64,000 nt of DNA from a virus: the IMG/VR virus record IMGVR_UViG_3300044634_002329, positions 1 through 64,000 of that record; one strand, written 5' to 3'. Positions 4,029-51,720 of this stretch are shown here, piece by piece. Every line of letters begins with the position of its first letter. Within the stretch, counting starts at the first letter, position 1. Position numbers and translations under genes: made by a program. The notes under the pieces are model-generated. The model saw only the letters and a list, made by a program, of their open reading frames with translations. It made no database searches and was not told the DNA's origin.

Positions 4029-4056
4029 AAAAGGGCCCGTGAGAGCCCTATTTTTA
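4029..4056 (-). terminator. Hairpin terminator after the VWA gene
   Basis: On the minus strand, AGGGC and GCCCT pair around an 8-nt loop and are followed by a T run. The hairpin sits directly past the stop of the VWA gene and before the regulator gene. Confidence 0.6.
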
Positions 4057-5418
4057 GTTTATAATCTCTTCACCAGATTCAGAATAAGCAACAACATTGT
4101 TATCATAATCAACATGAACTTGTTTACCATGAGTAGCAATACAAAGATTTTTCAACTGGTTGTTTTGTTCCATAAGACAGATTGCATTTACTTTGTAAGG
4201 AAACTTATCTGAATCAATAGAATCTTCTCCATCATTGATTATTAAAATCTCTGGTTTTTCTTCAGACAAATCAATATCTAAGTTATGAAGTGTTTTCTTT
4301 TTGATATCTGCAGCTACCTTTTCAACCATAGCACCAACTCTAGTTGTACCACCATCTGGATCATTAGAAAATGTTTGCCAGAATTTTAGTACAGTTTCTC
4401 TATCATGAATATGTTGAAAATGCATTTGATCAGGACTACATACAAAATAACTAAAGAAAACTTCAGCTTCTCCTCTCATAACATATTTAAATCTGTCAAT
4501 AAGAATAGCATTAACCCAATCTTGTTTTTCTTGTTCATCCATACTTCCAGAAAAGTCTAACAAAATAATAATCTTTTGCTTTTGTTCTTTTCTATCCACT
4601 GGTACATTGACAACAAGATCTTTAGTCAAAAGCTTGACATCAAAATTAGGAAATAATTTCTGATATAGATCAATATTTGCTATTTGAGCATAATCTCTCA
4701 TCATCTTTTTTGCATAGATGTCAGAATTACTAACTATTTTTTCATCAATTTCCTTTTCAACTTTGAATTGAGAACCTAACTCTCCAATAATAGAAATGTT
4801 GTTCATGATGGACATTTTTCTATTTTTACTGTGTTCATTAAGTTCTAGTTGTTCATTGATACTAGGATCCATGTACATTTCTCTGTCAAAATTTAATTGA
4901 GCTTTTTGAATCATTTCTTGATCAACATCATCAGAATCTTCTCTGTCCTGTTTCTCAGCTTCTCTAGACATTTGCTTATAAATAGCAATAGCTTGATCTA
5001 AAGGAGTAAATCCAGGAATAAAAGTCTCATAAATTGAATCATACAATGCTTTTTTAGCAGACAATTGTTCTTTTACATCATCAGCAAGATTCTCAAAGTC
5101 TGCATATTCATCTATAAAATAATTCTTGTCACCAATCATTTTAAAGTAGCATACTCTTGCAAGTTCTTTGATCTGATCTACAGCACTTTGTCTCCAGATA
5201 TTAGCTTTAGATTCAATATCTCTTTTACTAGGTGTTGTATAGTTTTCTGGATCTCTAACAATTAAATCATCATCATTCTCCAAAGGGTCATTAAAATATG
5301 AACCCCAATAATCCCAAGAACCTCCATAAGAATAACTACTATAGCCCTTTTTAGAGCCATAGTAGTTTGTTTTCTTACTAGAGGAACGTCCTTTACCATA
5401 TGAACTGTATCCAATCAT
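4054..5418 (-). CDS. VWA-domain protein with complete MIDAS
   Basis: A 454-residue protein. Residues 1-45 are a Tyr/Gly/Ser-rich low-complexity segment and residues 60-270 are mostly helical. The C-terminal VWA domain has a full metal-ion-dependent adhesion site: DFSGS at 288-292, GGTTR near 356-360 and INDGED with Asp396. Proteins of this type partner with MoxR-family AAA+ ATPases. The upstream gene, 2 nt away, is such an ATPase, so the two very likely form one complex that remodels or activates a target. Start ATG 5418. The target cannot be read from sequence. A VWA with an intact MIDAS is unusual cargo for this phage group as far as I know. Confidence 0.85.
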   Translation of the reverse strand: MIGYSSYGKGRSSSKKTNYYGSKKGYSSYSYGGSWDYWGSYFNDPLENDDDLIVRDPENYTTPSKRDIESKANIWRQSAVDQIKELARVCYFKMIGDKNYFIDEYADFENLADDVKEQLSAKKALYDSIYETFIPGFTPLDQAIAIYKQMSREAEKQDREDSDDVDQEMIQKAQLNFDREMYMDPSINEQLELNEHSKNRKMSIMNNISIIGELGSQFKVEKEIDEKIVSNSDIYAKKMMRDYAQIANIDLYQKLFPNFDVKLLTKDLVVNVPVDRKEQKQKIIILLDFSGSMDEQEKQDWVNAILIDRFKYVMRGEAEVFFSYFVCSPDQMHFQHIHDRETVLKFWQTFSNDPDGGTTRVGAMVEKVAADIKKKTLHNLDIDLSEEKPEILIINDGEDSIDSDKFPYKVNAICLMEQNNQLKNLCIATHGKQVHVDYDNNVVAYSESGEEIIN

Positions 5419-5420
5419 AA

Positions 5421-6473
5421 TTAATCATTAATCATTGTTGTAGCAATCATTGCTTTTTTAGCTAAAGCTTTAAATCTTCCATCATGTTCATTTAACAATC
5501 TTGTGTGATTATCAATTAAATCATCTGAAACTTTCAAAGACTTAACTTTTTTAAGCATGTTTTCATACTCAACCAAAGTTTCATTAAAACTTGTAAGTTC
5601 TGTTTGATTACTCAAAGGATTCAAGTCAAGCAACTGATAGTGATCTTGCATTAATCCTGCAAGGTTTCTCAATGTTGCTGCAGCTTCATACTTCTTCAAA
5701 CCTTCTGCTACCAAACTTGGTTTCTTTGCAAATTCTGCAATGAATCCCAAAGATTCAGGACCACATTTATCAAATACAGTGTATGCAGTAATTGCAACAC
5801 GTGGACTGATAACAATACCATTCTTTGCATACTCTTGCAAAATGAATGGAATTACTGGGTCAATTTCACCAAATCTTTCAGTTAGCAATTTGTTGTAAGC
5901 AATATCAGTATAGTTATCCCATACCACATTCAACTCCAATGGGAATCTTTCCATCAAAGCTTTCAAAGACATGTTCTTAGAGAACTCATCTCTTGTACGG
6001 TTAGTACAACAAACAATGAACTTTGTTTGAATTGGGAAAACTTGTGTACCATTTCTGAATACTCCAGAAGACAAGATATCCTTCAACTGCTCCAAGATGA
6101 AATCTGGTGCATCAAACATCTCTTCAAAGATAACATACTCATGATTCATGAAGCTGTTTTCTACAAGATACTCAATCTTACCAGTTTGATTAAATGTTGG
6201 AATATCCAAACCACCAAATAAACGGTCAGTAGTCATACCAGTACCCATAGTAATTACATAAGGGTTGATACCATTCTCTGTAAAGAAAGACATGGTCATT
6301 TCTGATTTACCATGTCCACCAGGACCATAAAGTACAATGTTTTTTTCAGTTGCCAAGCCAATTTCTAAAATCTGTGCTGTCTTTTCCATGAATACAAAAC
6401 TTTCCATTGCTGGAGTTGTAGCATTGGCAAAAAATTCATTGTTCTCTGTTGATTTTTGTGTTCCTTTTTCCAT
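5421..6473 (-). CDS. MoxR-like AAA+ ATPase
   Basis: A 350-residue AAA+ protein with Walker A GPGGHGKS (50-57), Walker B YVIFEEMFDA (Glu117-Glu118) and sensor 1 CCTNRT (Asn158). A likely arginine finger is in MERFPLE (Arg176). The size and motif spacing fit MoxR/RavA-like ATPases, which act as chaperone-like machines with VWA partners. It is followed after 2 nt by a VWA-MIDAS gene, the classic arrangement. Walker B has Glu-Glu in place of the usual Asp-Glu, as in several MoxR relatives. An alternative is a CbbQ/NorQ-type ATPase, which also pairs with a VWA protein. Confidence 0.85.
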   Translation of the reverse strand: MEKGTQKSTENNEFFANATTPAMESFVFMEKTAQILEIGLATEKNIVLYGPGGHGKSEMTMSFFTENGINPYVITMGTGMTTDRLFGGLDIPTFNQTGKIEYLVENSFMNHEYVIFEEMFDAPDFILEQLKDILSSGVFRNGTQVFPIQTKFIVCCTNRTRDEFSKNMSLKALMERFPLELNVVWDNYTDIAYNKLLTERFGEIDPVIPFILQEYAKNGIVISPRVAITAYTVFDKCGPESLGFIAEFAKKPSLVAEGLKKYEAAATLRNLAGLMQDHYQLLDLNPLSNQTELTSFNETLVEYENMLKKVKSLKVSDDLIDNHTRLLNEHDGRFKALAKKAMIATTMIND

Positions 6474-14554: not shown

Positions 14555-14668
14555 TAGTCAGGACAGGACTTGAACCTGTATCATTGTGTACATCAATAAT
14601 CTTCCGACCACATCATCCTTGCAAGATGATTGTCAATGAAGTGCGTCTACCAATTCCGCCACCTGACC
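14555..14668 (-). tRNA. tRNA-Leu-like gene with enlarged anticodon hairpin
   Basis: On the minus strand it has acceptor GGTCAGG paired with CCTGACT, discriminator A, a D arm identical in style to tRNA-Leu (GCGGAATTGGTAGACGC) and a T arm ACAGG-TTCAAGT-CCTGT. A variable-arm hairpin ATTG/CAAT is also present. The total is 114 nt, about 28 more than usual. The extra length sits in the anticodon region, which folds as a long broken hairpin (CTTC/GAAG, GAC/GTC, ATCATC/GATGAT) capped by the 7-nt loop TTGCAAG. That loop would present GCA, a cysteine anticodon, in a leucine-type body. Whether it is charged is unclear. Confidence 0.6.
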
Positions 14669-15298: not shown

Positions 15299-16411
15299 TT
15301 AAATATAATTTTCAAGAATTTCATGTTGTTTATTAGGAATAAACAATCCTTTGGATTTATCAGAACATAACCATGATATAAAATAATCTTTGTGTTTTTG
15401 ATCTACTGATGTATTTCTAATAGAATACATTTGATCTAATACAACATGATTAATTCCAACTATTCTTACTCCTGCTGTAGCTCTGACACCTTCTCTATCA
15501 TATCTAAAGACATAATAGTTTTTGTTTCTTACACTTCTTTCATAGTTAGTATAAACACAGTGTTTCATTGTAGTACCTTCTTCAAACAACTCAATGTTAC
15601 TCTTGATAAGACTAATACCTTCAGGTGTTTCAATCTCAGGATAGTTATAATCAACAGGTTGTATAGACTTTATAGCCATACCCATTAATTCTCTAGTCCA
15701 TTCAGCATGAACTTCCTTCATTCTAGTCTCTGACCACTTAAGATTTACTTTTCTATCAAGCATTTCAGCTTGAGTAAATAAATCTTCAAGTTCACCATTG
15801 TACCTAGTAGTTCTTTGTTTTGCTACATGTTCTAGACCTTCATTAGGATTAGTAGCATATAATATATACTTTCTTAATCCTTTTGGTGAATTAAATTCAT
15901 CTACTGTGAATGTTTTGTAAAACAATTCAGGTGATATGTCTAGATTTTTGTAAGGACTAGTCTTAAGATATGCTTTTACATAATCTCTTGGATTAGTAAT
16001 CTTACCCTTAATCATATTCTGAAGCATTGTCTTGTTTAACAATGTCTTTAATGCATGTGATAAAGCATTAAACCAGTCTAATTTAAAGAACTGAATAATA
16101 TCAGGTAATATTGTACCTTCTAATATCTGAATAGAATTACCAAACCAAATCTTAATGGTTTTCTTTTCTTTGTCAAAGCTAACACCTGCTTTATTACTAT
16201 TTAAGTAGAAAAGCCTGTTGTTTTCAAATCTCGGGACTCTATTACTGTTACACCAATAGACATGTGTATCAGTTTCTTTTCTATTTGTAGTAGAAAAACC
16301 ATAGATTTCTCCCTTATAAAACAAATATCTCTGTACTTCTACAGGCATTGCTTTATATTCTTCCATTTTTGCTAAACTTTGTTCTCCGTGAATAATAGTT
16401 TTAATTTCCAT
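15299..16411 (-). CDS. PcfJ-like protein, 370 aa
   Basis: The C-terminal region (about residues 275-365) has the features of PcfJ-like proteins: a helix, then LFEEGTTMKHCVYTNYERSV with a conserved His-Cys, then a strand pattern with RATAGVRIVGINHVVLDQMY and a C-terminal segment containing FISWLC. PcfJ is named from a conjugative plasmid, its biochemical role is unclear, and related proteins occur in phages. The N-terminal 200 residues are unrecognised. Start ATG 16411; its own unit, with a hairpin upstream at 16447..16468. Confidence 0.65.
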   Translation of the reverse strand: MEIKTIIHGEQSLAKMEEYKAMPVEVQRYLFYKGEIYGFSTTNRKETDTHVYWCNSNRVPRFENNRLFYLNSNKAGVSFDKEKKTIKIWFGNSIQILEGTILPDIIQFFKLDWFNALSHALKTLLNKTMLQNMIKGKITNPRDYVKAYLKTSPYKNLDISPELFYKTFTVDEFNSPKGLRKYILYATNPNEGLEHVAKQRTTRYNGELEDLFTQAEMLDRKVNLKWSETRMKEVHAEWTRELMGMAIKSIQPVDYNYPEIETPEGISLIKSNIELFEEGTTMKHCVYTNYERSVRNKNYYVFRYDREGVRATAGVRIVGINHVVLDQMYSIRNTSVDQKHKDYFISWLCSDKSKGLFIPNKQHEILENYI

Positions 16412-16446
16412 TTTTAAGTATATTTTTTGAGTAAATAATAATAATT

Positions 16447-16468
16447 AGAGAGCCTTTCAACTCTCCAA
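16447..16468 (-). terminator. Hairpin terminator
   Basis: On the minus strand GAGAG-ttgaaagg-CTCTC followed by an AT-rich tract, directly after the stop of the gene at 16477..16752. Confidence 0.45.
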
Positions 16469-16476
16469 TTATATAG

Positions 16477-16752
16477 CTAATATCCTTCACTGCATTGCTG
16501 ACACATGTGAACTTCATCACACTGACATGTTAATGCCGGATCAATGCTGTGTAACATTGCCATATCAGCATGTTCACTAGCAATATCTCCATGTACCTGA
16601 AATTTAGGCTTAGAGACCGGCTTAACTTTAATACTCTTAACAATTAACTTAAGAGTATTTCTTAGATGAGTGACATCCATATCATCAATGGATATTCTTT
16701 GACCGTTTTTCATGGTCCAATAAACTGTTTCCATAATTATAATTTTAGACAT
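16477..16752 (-). CDS. Conserved hypothetical protein, Cys-rich tail, 91 aa
   Basis: The segment WTMKNGQRISIDDMDVTHLR, followed by NTLKLIVKS, is a pattern I know from many short phage proteins (a strand pair, then DMxxxHLxNxLxxI). The C-terminus carries CQCDEVHMCQQC, a possible zinc site that is not usual for the family. ATG 16752 or ATG 16734 (METVYW) could be the start. It is the first gene downstream of the large structured non-coding region. Confidence 0.6.
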   Translation of the reverse strand: MSKIIIMETVYWTMKNGQRISIDDMDVTHLRNTLKLIVKSIKVKPVSKPKFQVHGDIASEHADMAMLHSIDPALTCQCDEVHMCQQCSEGY

Positions 16753-16772
16753 TTATAAAACATTTTTAATAA

Positions 16773-16839
16773 AACAGTTGTAACCCGATATACCATTCCC
16801 ACCAGGGTACTCTATAGTATACTCAATGTTACAACTGTT
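16773..16839 (-). ncRNA. Structured RNA domain with 12-bp closing stem
   Basis: AACAGTTGTAAC pairs perfectly with GTTACAACTGTT across a 43-nt interior. Inside is a smaller hairpin TACT-CTAT-AGTA and a CC/GG pairing around CATTCCCACCA. It is the 3' domain of the locus on the minus strand, just before the next gene. Confidence 0.5.
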
Positions 16840-16953
16840 AATACCCTCTGCACTCAATTATAACTATCTCCGTGGCTGTAAGACGTAGTGGAGTCATTCA
16901 TTACAATTGCTCACCCTTGGGAAGTGAGAATGGTGCATTACTACTTTGCTTAG

Positions 16954-17058
16954 GCATCAACAACCCCCTCAAGTAGAACAGGACCGAAACTACTTGCATG
17001 TAAACTGAATAGAGTGCAAAGTTTGAAAAACTCCTCTTCAGTTATTTACAGTTGATGC
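16954..17058 (-). ncRNA. Three-way-junction RNA domain
   Basis: The closing stem GCATCAAC/GTTGATGC (8 bp) encloses two arms. One is CAAGTAG/CTACTTG (7 bp, 16970..16996, 13-nt loop). The other is GTAAACTGAA paired with TTCAG-TTA-TTTAC (10 bp with a 3-nt bulge, 17000..17049). The second arm carries an inner AGTTT/AAACT hairpin. Every long stem is perfect, which would be improbable by chance in this composition. Confidence 0.5.
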
Positions 17059-17063
17059 ATTAT

Positions 17064-17148
17064 TGGTACTCTTACAGGGTTGCAACCCCTGACTCATATA
17101 GAATACTATGACCATCTAACTATGAGTTTATCCTGCTTGGATAAGAGT
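17064..17148 (-). ncRNA. tRNA-like element with encoded CCA
   Basis: Read on the minus strand: acceptor ACTCTTA with TAAGAGT (7 bp), discriminator A and encoded CCA. The D-like arm is TCC-AAGCA-GGA. The anticodon-position stem is ACTCATA/TATGAGT (7 bp) with a 22-nt loop in place of 7. The T-position arm is CAGGG-GTTGCAA-CCCTG (5 bp, 7-nt loop). The T loop lacks the usual TTCRA. It has the cloverleaf plan of a tRNA but no standard anticodon loop, so it may be a processing or mimicry element and not a translating tRNA. Confidence 0.5.
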
Positions 17149-17562
17149 AATTGTGTACAGCATTATTGGTTAGCTGTACGGCTTGTGACTAGGATTACTG
17201 CCTAGCTCCTTAATTGTTACATAATGTAATCTGTTCCTATCATTAGTTCAAGGATACTGATTAGTATATAAAGAGGAATTCTTCATTATTTATGACCGGA
17301 CACTAATCCCGGATAATCTTACTGTACTCTTCCTATAAGTAATAGATAAGATAATAGTAATAGTAGGTAAGAGTGTATATATAGTAATAGGTATTTATAG
17401 CCATATATAAATGTATGTAGAGTGACATGACTAGATTATCTTAGTCTGTTAATGACCGAAGATATGGCAACTGTTTATCACCCACTCACTGACACTCAGA
17501 CACTTACATAATTAATATTAACTATTAACTTGCCACAATGTTGTCAAACTAGTACCTTATCT

Positions 17563-17590
17563 TGACCGATTCATGACCGATAAATGACCG
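17563..17590. repeat. TGACCG iteron-like repeats
   Basis: TGACCG occurs at 17563, 17574 and 17585, exactly 11 bp apart (about one helical turn), with two more copies at 17293 and 17453 in the same orientation. Equal spacing suggests a protein bound to one face of the DNA, as at replication origins or operators. AT-rich DNA lies next to it. Confidence 0.5.
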
Positions 17591-17640
17591 TACAATAAGC
17601 ATTATTACTATTCTTTTACTATTAAAGTTATAAAAATTTA

Positions 17641-17663
17641 AGCCGAGACGTAGTCTCCATAGG
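17641..17663 (-). promoter_or_regulatory. Conserved hairpin element, copy 1
   Basis: On the minus strand CCTATG, then a hairpin GAGAC-tac-GTCTC, then GGCTTAAA, directly upstream of the promoter-like motif of the ncRNA locus. Copy 2 at 18265..18292 keeps the flanks but has a different stem. This suggests an operator or a terminator. Confidence 0.45.
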
Positions 17664-17783
17664 TATTTTTATAAAAGACATATTTTATAACTACCTGATT
17701 ACTAATACCAAAGTCTACTTGTTACACACGGTGGAGACAACTAAATAAAAACAGGATACACATTTCTGTGTACCCTGTAATAT

Positions 17784-18321: not shown

Positions 18322-18477
18322 TTAAGACTTGTTCTTTATTACCTTTGCATTCATGTACATCTTTTTATGTAATGCACTTAAGAATGGTGACTTAGGATTA
18401 TGGTCTGCAATCTTCTTTACCAAATCCATTAACATGTTATACTCTGTCCATGTTATTTCTAATACTACTGTATCCAT
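18322..18477 (-). CDS. Small protein, 51 aa
   Basis: A 51-residue frame starting MDTVVLEITWTEYNMLMDLV and ending in a basic VIKNKS. The N-terminal strand plus helix resembles a small dimeric DNA-binding or toxin-inhibitor fold, without a recognised family. It is a single-gene cassette: promoter motif at 18494, 16 nt upstream, and an AACAAG/CTTGTT hairpin overlapping its end. Confidence 0.55.
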   Translation of the reverse strand: MDTVVLEITWTEYNMLMDLVKKIADHNPKSPFLSALHKKMYMNAKVIKNKS

Positions 18478-39662: not shown

Positions 39663-41279
39663 ATGGCAACTCCAGTTTTAAACAATGGTATATTCCTACG
39701 TGATACTGCTTATGCAGCTTCATCTCACGTAGATTCTTACCACTTAGTAAACATGCTTAAGGATGCTGAACCTATGGATTTAGGTCCGGTTGATCTTTGG
39801 GCTATGGCACAAAAGGTTGAAATGCCTCTTTACCAAATGTCTTCTTTCGGTGGAAAGAATGTCATTATGGTTGACAATGCTCGTGGAGAGTATAGATGGC
39901 AAACTCCAGTTTCAGTAGATCTACCTTACATTGTAGAGGACATTGAATCTGAAAATGATTTCAAAGGTATTGAAGGTACTACTTTCCGTATCAAGTTGAA
40001 CAAACGTGAGTTTGGACATGGTGATATTATCACTTATGACAAATACAACGGTGTTGAGATGTACATTACAGCTGAAGACATTCTTCCTATTGGAGATGGA
40101 TTTATCTATACTGTACAGTTGGTAAACAATGACAATTACAAATACTTGGATAACAAGTACTTGTCTAATGGTACAAAAGTTTTCCGTAAAGGTTCAGCTA
40201 GAGGTGAGTATGGTGAGAGATTCTCTGACATCATTACTAACACAGGTTTCCGTGAATTCTATAACTATGTAGGAGGTGCTGAAGCTCACGTACATTACTC
40301 TATCTCTTCTCGTGCAGATTTGATGATCAAAGGTGGAATGAATGCAGATGGTACAGTTCCTGTAACTGAAATCTGGAGAACATTTGACAAAAACATTGAT
40401 CCAGCAATTGCATCTTTGGATGATATGGTTAAGGTAATGGGTAAAGACAAAGTTAAAAAAGCATTTGACAATGGAGACTTGTCACGTACTTTCTTGACTA
40501 ACATGGAAGCTGCTCACTTAACAAAAATTGCAACGGATATTGAGACTTACCTTATGTGGGGACACGGAGGTAGAGTACGTCAAGATGGTCCAGATGATGT
40601 AAGATTGTCAGTGGGTCTTTGGAAACAATTGGATAACTCTTTCAAAAGAGTATACAATAAAAATAACTTTACATTGGATTTGTTCCGTGGAGAAATCTAC
40701 AACTTCTTCAATGGTAAAGTTGAGTTCCAAGGTCCAGATCCAAAAAGATCTTTGGTTGTACAAACTGGTATGGGTGGAATGAGAATGGTAAATGAAGCTA
40801 TCAAAAGAGAAGCAGTATCTTCTGGTCTTTTGATTCAAGCTGCTGATATCGGTGCAATCACTGGTAAAGGTATGGACTTGAACTTTGGATTTGCTTACAC
40901 TTCTTATGTTATTCCATTCTTGGCTAACGTGAAATTTGTATTGAATCCAGCATTTGACAATGTTCATACAAATGATATTGAGAACCCAATCATTGATGGT
41001 TTCCCATTATCTTCTTACTCATTCATTATCTTTGATATCACAGATAACACAAATGACAACATCTACATGTTGAAATTGTCTTGGGATAATCAATTGAAAT
41101 GGTGGTATCAAAATGGTACAATGGATTACATGGGTAGAACTCAAGGGTTCCAATCTTCTGGACAATTCAACGGATACCGTGTAATGATGTCTCAAACAAT
41201 GCCTGCTATTTGGGTTAAAGATCCAACTAAAGTATTAAAAATTGTTATGAGAAACCCAGTTACAGGTGGATCATTCTAA
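39663..41279 (+). CDS. Major capsid protein
   Basis: A 538-residue protein of the HK97 fold by position and length. The start MATPVLNNGIFLRDTAYAAS and the segment RAMAQKVEMPLYQM-like region near 50 match the crAss-like capsid pattern. Codon use differs slightly from its neighbours (more C-ending codons), as expected for a highly expressed gene. It is followed by a strong terminator at 41296..41332. It forms the icosahedral shell. Confidence 0.8.
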   Translation: MATPVLNNGIFLRDTAYAASSHVDSYHLVNMLKDAEPMDLGPVDLWAMAQKVEMPLYQMSSFGGKNVIMVDNARGEYRWQTPVSVDLPYIVEDIESENDFKGIEGTTFRIKLNKREFGHGDIITYDKYNGVEMYITAEDILPIGDGFIYTVQLVNNDNYKYLDNKYLSNGTKVFRKGSARGEYGERFSDIITNTGFREFYNYVGGAEAHVHYSISSRADLMIKGGMNADGTVPVTEIWRTFDKNIDPAIASLDDMVKVMGKDKVKKAFDNGDLSRTFLTNMEAAHLTKIATDIETYLMWGHGGRVRQDGPDDVRLSVGLWKQLDNSFKRVYNKNNFTLDLFRGEIYNFFNGKVEFQGPDPKRSLVVQTGMGGMRMVNEAIKREAVSSGLLIQAADIGAITGKGMDLNFGFAYTSYVIPFLANVKFVLNPAFDNVHTNDIENPIIDGFPLSSYSFIIFDITDNTNDNIYMLKLSWDNQLKWWYQNGTMDYMGRTQGFQSSGQFNGYRVMMSQTMPAIWVKDPTKVLKIVMRNPVTGGSF

Positions 41280-50242: not shown

Positions 50243-50247
50243 AAAAA

Positions 50248-51720
50248 ATGGCTAAAGATATTTGTTATACTCTGTATCCTTGTGGAGACAATTACCCAGT
50301 TATATTTACAACTGATGATATACCAGGGGGTTTACTAAATACTCAAGTAACTATTGGTAATCCTAATCAATGTTATTGGTTAAGTACTAGTCCTCTTGGG
50401 CAATGCATAAATCCTATTAGTGTAACAATAACACCAGCAACTGATTGTTGTCCTTCTACTTGTTATTATGTACCAACAGGAGAGGTATTTTATATTAATG
50501 AATTAGGAGAGCAACATATTCAATTTGGTCCAATTCAATTTTGTTCTATTATTCAACCATTGTATAATAAAGGTACAGTAGTTATTAAATTAGGAGAATG
50601 TACTGAAGATGGTTGCCCATCATATTGTTACAAATTAGTAAACTGTGACGGTGTAACTGATCCTTTATATACTACTTCAGAAACTATGTTACCTTATGCT
50701 GTTGCAGGAACTACAGTAACTTTAATAGGGCAAGACGGATGTTGGGTACCTGAAATATCTGAAGATAATTGTGAGTGTGCTATTAATTTAATAGTTAATG
50801 AGACATTTGCTGATTGTTCAGAATGTATAGGTTATATTACATACAAACTTACAAACTGTAATGATAATACAGTAATATATACTAGTGATGATTTATCTAC
50901 TTATACAAATCAAACTGTAGAAATAGATCCATGTGATGGATGTTGGTTTGTAGAACAACTAGATTATCAAGGACCTTCTGATCAAACTGTTACAGTTACT
51001 CGTGTATTTGGTTCATGTGAAGCATGTAATAAAACATATTATGAATTAATTGATTGTGCTGGAATAGAACCATTTATTACTACTACTACAGATTTATCTG
51101 CACAACTTGGTAAGTTTATTACTTTAAAATGGTGTCCAGATGTATGCTGGGAAGTAACTGAAACAAGAGATGATTCAAATTCTACAATAGTATTTCCAAC
51201 AGGAGAATATGATTCATGTCCGGAATGTGCAATTGCTGTATTACCATGTGAATGTCAAACAGTAATAAATACGGGACTAACAGACACTTTAACTTATATT
51301 GATTGTACTGGAAATACAGTTAATATTACAGTTCCTATTGGACAAAGAAGTACTAAAATATGTGCTAAATTAATAGAGTCAACTCATGCAAATGTAATTA
51401 AATATGGTGATTGCATTAATGGTGTATGTCCTCCATTAGTTTATCCTAAAGCTACAATTATTCCTGGATACAATACACCTACATGTACTCCTGATAAATA
51501 TGAAGAAATAACATGTAGAGCTTCTGAAATACTTTATAAACAAGTTCTTCAAAGAAAATATGGTATTAGTAATTGTTGTCCAGAGGAAGACAATAAATGG
51601 TTACTTAAAAAAGAACTAATTGATATGGCAGCACTAGTTGATCCTGATTATACATGTGCTCCAAGTACTACTTGTAATTGTCCTCCATCTAATTGTAGTT
51701 GTAAGACTTGTAATTCTTAA
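50248..51720 (+). CDS. Cys-rich repeat virion protein, 490 aa
   Basis: A 490-residue protein made of several about 65-residue modules of similar form: CYKLVNCDG or TYKLTNCND, a strand with Thr, then GCWVPEIS or GCWFVEQL (Cys before Trp). It has more than 35 Cys. The modules resemble small beta-sandwich repeats that may be tied by metal or disulfides. It is probably a virion tail or collar component. Confidence 0.6.
   Translation: MAKDICYTLYPCGDNYPVIFTTDDIPGGLLNTQVTIGNPNQCYWLSTSPLGQCINPISVTITPATDCCPSTCYYVPTGEVFYINELGEQHIQFGPIQFCSIIQPLYNKGTVVIKLGECTEDGCPSYCYKLVNCDGVTDPLYTTSETMLPYAVAGTTVTLIGQDGCWVPEISEDNCECAINLIVNETFADCSECIGYITYKLTNCNDNTVIYTSDDLSTYTNQTVEIDPCDGCWFVEQLDYQGPSDQTVTVTRVFGSCEACNKTYYELIDCAGIEPFITTTTDLSAQLGKFITLKWCPDVCWEVTETRDDSNSTIVFPTGEYDSCPECAIAVLPCECQTVINTGLTDTLTYIDCTGNTVNITVPIGQRSTKICAKLIESTHANVIKYGDCINGVCPPLVYPKATIIPGYNTPTCTPDKYEEITCRASEILYKQVLQRKYGISNCCPEEDNKWLLKKELIDMAALVDPDYTCAPSTTCNCPPSNCSCKTCNS

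Follow-up and report, generated by a model that had tools for sequence, protein, structure and literature searches.

This locus raises the question of what a phage maintains in a stretch without genes. Positions 16753-17783 form the sole true gap of such size in the window, by which we mean the whole stretch of DNA analysed here, 64 kb from the start of a virus record of 119,985 bases. The longest ORF in the gap is 41 amino acids, which bears out the gene-free stretch described in an earlier note on this DNA; an apparent second gap at 50243-51637 was rejected because a long frame is open there from about 50249. The genome was assigned to the crAss-like phages because a Crassvirus major capsid protein is encoded at 39663-41279 (Pfam PF23898, E 4e-31), and BLAST searches of named phage collections, in which the consensus motif was included as a query, revealed no DNA-level similarity. 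We consider it likely that the gap is an early leader composed of RNA modules, and that the last conserved module is a self-cleaving variant of the twister ribozyme which processes the leader. The assignment as a twister variant is based on a conserved, covarying fold, the presence of a twister core and a match to a descriptor of twisters.

Probable transcription unit containing the gap

Between about 14 and 21 kb the genes are short and nearly all are encoded on the minus strand. The gap is bounded by the following signals:

17751-17778, minus strand: terminator-like hairpin at the end of the upstream gene
17617-17634, minus strand: early promoter-like motif heading the leader, TTTATAACTTTAATAGTA
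16441-16472, minus strand: terminator-like hairpin that closes the unit of leader and ORF 16477-16752

Based on the terminator-like hairpins at both ends and the recurring promoter-like motif, the gap is most likely a minus-strand leader of about 850 nt preceding ORF 16477-16752, with its start near 17.6 kb; since the hairpin at 17751-17778 would terminate the upstream gene, the leader would constitute a unit of its own. The promoter-like motif that the earlier note had described is present and directed into the stretch on the minus strand. The motif TTTATAACTTTAATA at 17634-17620 is repeated exactly at 18511-18497, ahead of the gene at 18477, and most early minus-strand genes are preceded by a less strict version of it; the motif itself is not rare, with five matches at up to two mismatches compared with 2.8 expected.

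The sequence CGGTCA occurs five times on the minus strand of the leader, at 17590-17563 and also at 17458 and 17298, with three copies at an exact spacing of 11 nt just past the promoter-like motif. Across the 64 kb there are eight copies on the minus and one on the plus strand, and the repeats could represent an operator or an RNA-binding site. The RNA locus is adjoined by a gene for a PcfJ-like protein (15299-16411, minus strand) that is conserved in related phages. A tRNA with a long variable region (14555-14668, minus strand) was detected by Rfam at 43 bits and missed by ARAGORN, and the early region at 4054-6473 on the minus strand encodes a MoxR-type AAA ATPase beside a weak VWA-like protein. 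Related phages also contain a tmRNA gene (Rfam RF00023), at 9668-10100 in L009, 8927-9400 in L012 and 779-1208 in L015.

Conserved RNA modules of the proposed leader

Relatives were collected by motif scans and via the PcfJ-like gene next to the locus, and comparison with these related phages showed the leader to comprise four or more conserved elements in series. The modules of the locus are:

17743-17682, minus strand: block A, a ~60-nt segment that precedes the promoter-like motif and is conserved in at least 24 loci
17123-17271, minus strand: element B, conserved and with hairpins, in at least about 12 loci (blastn coverage)
17066-17149, minus strand: element C, a cloverleaf scaffold with at least 41 instances in related phages
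16944-17062, minus strand: element D, a three-way junction with a pseudoknot and at least eight homologues
16838-16946, minus strand: module E, a candidate twister-like ribozyme and the most conserved module
16773-16839, minus strand: element F, a 12-bp stem-loop with arms that repeat the P5 consensus CAGUUGUAAC/GUUACAACUG

The earlier note had proposed one large, structured early non-coding RNA. That the locus holds structured non-coding RNA is supported by covariation in relatives, but it consists of separate modules rather than one RNA, since these recur, rearranged, in other phages. The stems that had been listed are present, including the 12-bp stem (16839-16828/16784-16773), the 8-bp closing stem (17058-17051/16961-16954) with two arms, whose junction covaries in relatives, and the cloverleaf (17149-17066); the strongest module, at 16946-16838, was missing from that list. 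Of the checks the note had suggested, comparison with related phages provided covariation in support of the three-way junction D and above all of module E, and an Rfam scan returned nothing in the stretch that reached the gathering score, even at E<=10. The proposed roles in acting against CRISPR, in translation or as a packaging RNA gained no support here. The folding energy of the whole region was unremarkable (z -1.6 for the minus and -0.9 for the plus strand), and folding energy alone therefore shows no more than chance.

In element D, the pseudoknot CUUUGC (17021-17016)/GCAAAG (16949-16944) was invariant across eight sequences, and the closing stem and the arms vary in a compensatory manner among homologues, with a covariation of.168 vs.089 for shuffled data (0/500; 8 sequences). 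Element C has the frame UACUCUCA-UCCAAGCAGG-insert-CAAGGGUUGCAACCUUG-UGAGAGUA, in which UCCAAGCAGG and GGRUUGCAACC are conserved and the insert is hypervariable; variants of its P1 include CUCA/UGAG, CUUG/CAAG and CUUA/UAAG. It is usually located upstream of the ribozyme-like module E, often by 40-300 nt, and the cloverleaf is without an Rfam family. An identity as tRNA or tmRNA was rejected, none being called by ARAGORN or Rfam and the loops not being of tRNA type. Core-less hairpins similar to element F are found right after the ribozyme-like element in L062, L065, L082 and L130, and may perhaps be decayed ribozyme copies; a general association of F-like hairpins with the ribozyme was rejected, such hairpins lying downstream in 24/160 cases against a background of 104/800.

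In both C and E the frame is constant and the insert within it changes rapidly. The inserts of P5 in module E and of the cloverleaf (n=192) fell into 146 families, 113 of which were singletons, and none of the 192 was common to the ribozyme-like E and cloverleaf C frames. The idea that P5 inserts are strongly structured RNAs was rejected based on a mean z of -0.82, compared with -0.42 for random windows and -0.78 for the antisense, a stability little above that of random sequence.

Fold, conservation and distribution of module E

Copies of module E were collected by sequence anchors only, without demanding pairing and with AA lying within the anchor, resulting in at least 171 instances in at least 159 viral loci. 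The conserved fold, a three-way junction with a pseudoknot, comprises, in order, P1, U|AA, P2 (UGCAC/GUGCA), C-A followed by two or three nucleotides, P4, P5 with its insert, A, P2', GA(G/U)GG and P1'. In the window its parts are located as follows:

16933-16937, minus strand: 5' strand of P2, UGCAC, pairing with GUGCA at 16853-16849
16910-16928, minus strand: P4 hairpin with loop L4, UUCCCAAGG, in which CCC (16921-16919) pairs with GGG (16846-16844) to form T1
16855-16909, minus strand: P5 stem (16909-16900/16864-16855), with covariation, and hypervariable insert (16899-16865)
16844-16848, minus strand: 3' strand of L1, GAGGG, with G39 (G16848), A40 and the T1 strand

Covariation supports P1, P2, P4, P5 and one T1 pair. 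Among 40 diverse copies it amounted to.486, compared with.183 for shuffled data (0/500), and slid controls did not exceed.127; these 40 rows were chosen with pairing in P2, P4 and P5 required, and the anchor-only set (n=171) represents the unforced test. P2 showed the compensatory variants UGUAC/GUACA, UGCGU/ACGCA, UGCAU/AUGCA and UGUGU/ACACA, and its fifth pair, C7-G35, covaries (C-G 160, U-A 10, U-G 1). P4, with 5 bp of very variable sequence and the loop UUCC(C/A)AAGG, was Watson-Crick paired in 164-168 of the 171 copies at each position, vs shuffle maxima of 90-130. The T1 pair 21-41 was C-G in 155 copies and A-U in 14, with two exceptions, the other two T1 pairs being invariably C-G. The four innermost positions of P1 exceeded every shuffle; P1 is weak and mispaired in the window's own copy and poorly paired in its closest relative too, and strong in L036, L130 and L029.

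G39, A40, G42 and G43 were invariant among the collected copies, as were A1 and A2, the AA being part of the collection anchor; a scan without the head anchor still returned AA in nearly all heads. The base at position -1 was U in 168 copies and C in 3 (n=171). The contact C8-G24 was present in 40/40 rows, and positions 7 and 25 are able to pair, but C7 covaries with its P2' base, so that T2 may consist of one pair only. The G-U variants of module E fit the minus strand only, and a covariance model of the module, R1, had its sole significant match in the window at this position (64 bits, E 1.8e-15).

A search of 84,980 prokaryote genomes with a short pattern gave 113 matches, of which one, on a lake-MAG contig of 4.6 kb, was a true copy; the other 112 were rejected as chance matches to the short pattern, and module E is therefore essentially viral. 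Most of its long carriers are crAss-like, with a Crassvirus capsid encoded in 21 of 24 long carrier records. Of 26 long records, 20 matched the ribozyme pattern, each of them exactly once; the other six had been reached by the 3' motif only. In 120 of 127 loci the module is followed by an ORF of the same orientation, at a distance of up to >1000 nt, and as the downstream genes belong to many unrelated families the candidate ribozyme has no fixed partner gene. Element D abuts the predicted cleavage site also in L029, L115/L018 and L332, other sequences preceding the site elsewhere. No description of module E was found in a literature search that covered few subscription papers.

Relation to twister ribozymes and predicted cleavage

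In twister ribozymes P1, P2 and P4 are essential and P0, P3 and P5 are optional, with P5 in ~1%; cleavage occurs at U-A in L1, and there are two pseudoknots, T1 and T2 (PMC5408937, PMC6154101). P1 has been reported to be dispensable (PMC6154101). The catalytic bases are A1 and G39 (PMC9901934), non-canonical pairs are formed by A2-G39, A22-A40 and U18-A23 (PMC7026644), and the base at -1 is U in ~90% (PMC9521606). A review cautions that the active site may be perturbed when P2 differs in length (PMC5408937).

Three distinct Rfam-called bacterial twisters, obtained by an RF03160 search of 245 genomes, were used as references. Set against the Rfam consensus, the canonical core reads UAA-UGCA-GC...GGUCACAAGCCC...UGCA-GAGUG and that of module E UAA-UGCA-CC...UUCCCAAGG...UGCA-GAGGG. 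Module E shares with twister type P1 (RF03160) the U|AA, a P2 directly after the AA, the same order of parts with P1 outside, a contact of C8 with G24 of L4, an L4 of the form U-N-N-C-A-A-G (U18 to G24), a three-pair T1 between L4 and the GAGGG strand, and G39 and A40 as in the RF03160 consensus; the 4-bp core of its P2 is UGCA, as in bacterial twisters. It differs in that P2 has five pairs instead of four, an additional U extends L4 from 8 to 9 nt, and the near-invariant G17-C26 pair that closes L4 in twister is replaced by a variable closing pair. In addition, P3 is lacking and P5 is always present, with a variable insert.

A descriptor was built from canonical twisters only, consisting of AA, a 4-bp P2, N7-C8, a hairpin with U-N-N-C-A-A-G-N, and GA; it also requires a three-pair T1 and 7-25 and 8-24 pairing, and allows up to two extra loop bases. 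This descriptor matched 3/3 of the Rfam-called bacterial twisters and, in the 64-kb window, module E only, compared with 0.02 matches per shuffled window. It was matched by 148 of 166 relatives, the remaining 18 missing the strict core. The Rfam 15 twister models gave no match to module E at E<=10, and the module E model gave none to canonical twisters; given the structural differences and the mutual blindness of the models, we refer to module E as a variant with the active-site plan of twister rather than a plain member of the family.

In the predicted structure, P1, P2, P4 and P5 would be arranged around T1, formed by the CCC of L4 with GGG, and the C8-G24 contact. The backbone would be cut between U16940 and A16939, using A1 (A16939) and G39 as in twister. 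Cleavage would separate the upstream non-coding RNA, leaving element D with a 3' end 4 nt past its pseudoknot and a 2',3'-cyclic phosphate, from a downstream product with a 5'-OH end comprising the ribozyme, hairpin F and the mRNA. We infer self-cleavage, and processing of the leader as its purpose. The formation of a natural circle by twister together with an RtcB ligase was rejected; no RtcB was found in this genome or 24 relatives, and circularisation by a phage enzyme is therefore unsupported.

The departures from canonical twister could also indicate a twister-derived RNA that does not cleave and whose fold provides a scaffold or confers stability, for instance by blocking exonucleases, while displaying a variable P5 hairpin. 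Such a role would agree with the extra base in L4, the longer P2, a P1 that is weak in some copies, the window's included, and a P5 that occurs in every copy with a highly variable insert. However, a pure scaffold need not preserve the exact active site of twister, and A1, A2, G39 and A40 show no variation among the collected copies, with T1 conserved and covarying; we regard loss of cleavage as unlikely. That the stretch is instead a single working unit, as the earlier note suggested, in the form of an ornate large RNA of the GOLLD or ROOL kind, is highly improbable: its length of about 0.85 kb, the phage setting and the tRNA gene nearby (14555-14668) would be in keeping with this, but no Rfam model matches in the stretch, and in other phages B, C, D and E occur apart from one another and at differing distances, with ORFs between them in L003. 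A purely cis-regulatory structure of the downstream early gene, such as a riboswitch or translational leader, would explain the same-strand ORF downstream in 120/127 loci, yet the downstream families are unrelated, the distance to the ORF extends to >1000 nt and a P5 of arbitrary sequence is unlike a ligand pocket, which leaves this explanation with very little probability.

Taking module E as a self-cleaving twister variant, a broader role can be suggested for it as a speculative possibility. In a lineage of crAss-like phages the variant, typically present once per genome, might serve as a self-cutting frame around the fast-changing P5 and, together with cloverleaf C, constitute a cassette for making and trimming rapidly evolving early small RNAs, perhaps decoys against RNA-directed defences of the host.

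The association of twister with phage-related genes is unexplained (PMC10085705). If true, a twister variant with a near-unchanged core in many crAss-like phages would offer a concrete place to test a natural role of twister, located within a defined early leader and, in several phages, immediately past another conserved RNA. It would also represent a branch of twister missed by Rfam 15, and its different P2/L4 geometry could help to establish on which elements of the twister fold catalysis depends.

GOLLD and ROOL are large non-coding stretches in phages; the leader differs from them in being modular and in having no match to the models of these families. The P4 loop of module E resembles that of twister-sister ribozymes to some degree (PMC5408937), but twister-sister cleaves the other strand and does so without a pseudoknot (PMC5408937, PMC6154101), whereas the T1 pseudoknot of module E covaries. 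The theta (HDV-like) ribozymes of gut phages are, as predicted for module E, a self-cleaving class in phage genomes (PMC10879173); they differ from module E in having an HDV-like fold and in being tied to phage suppressor tRNAs.
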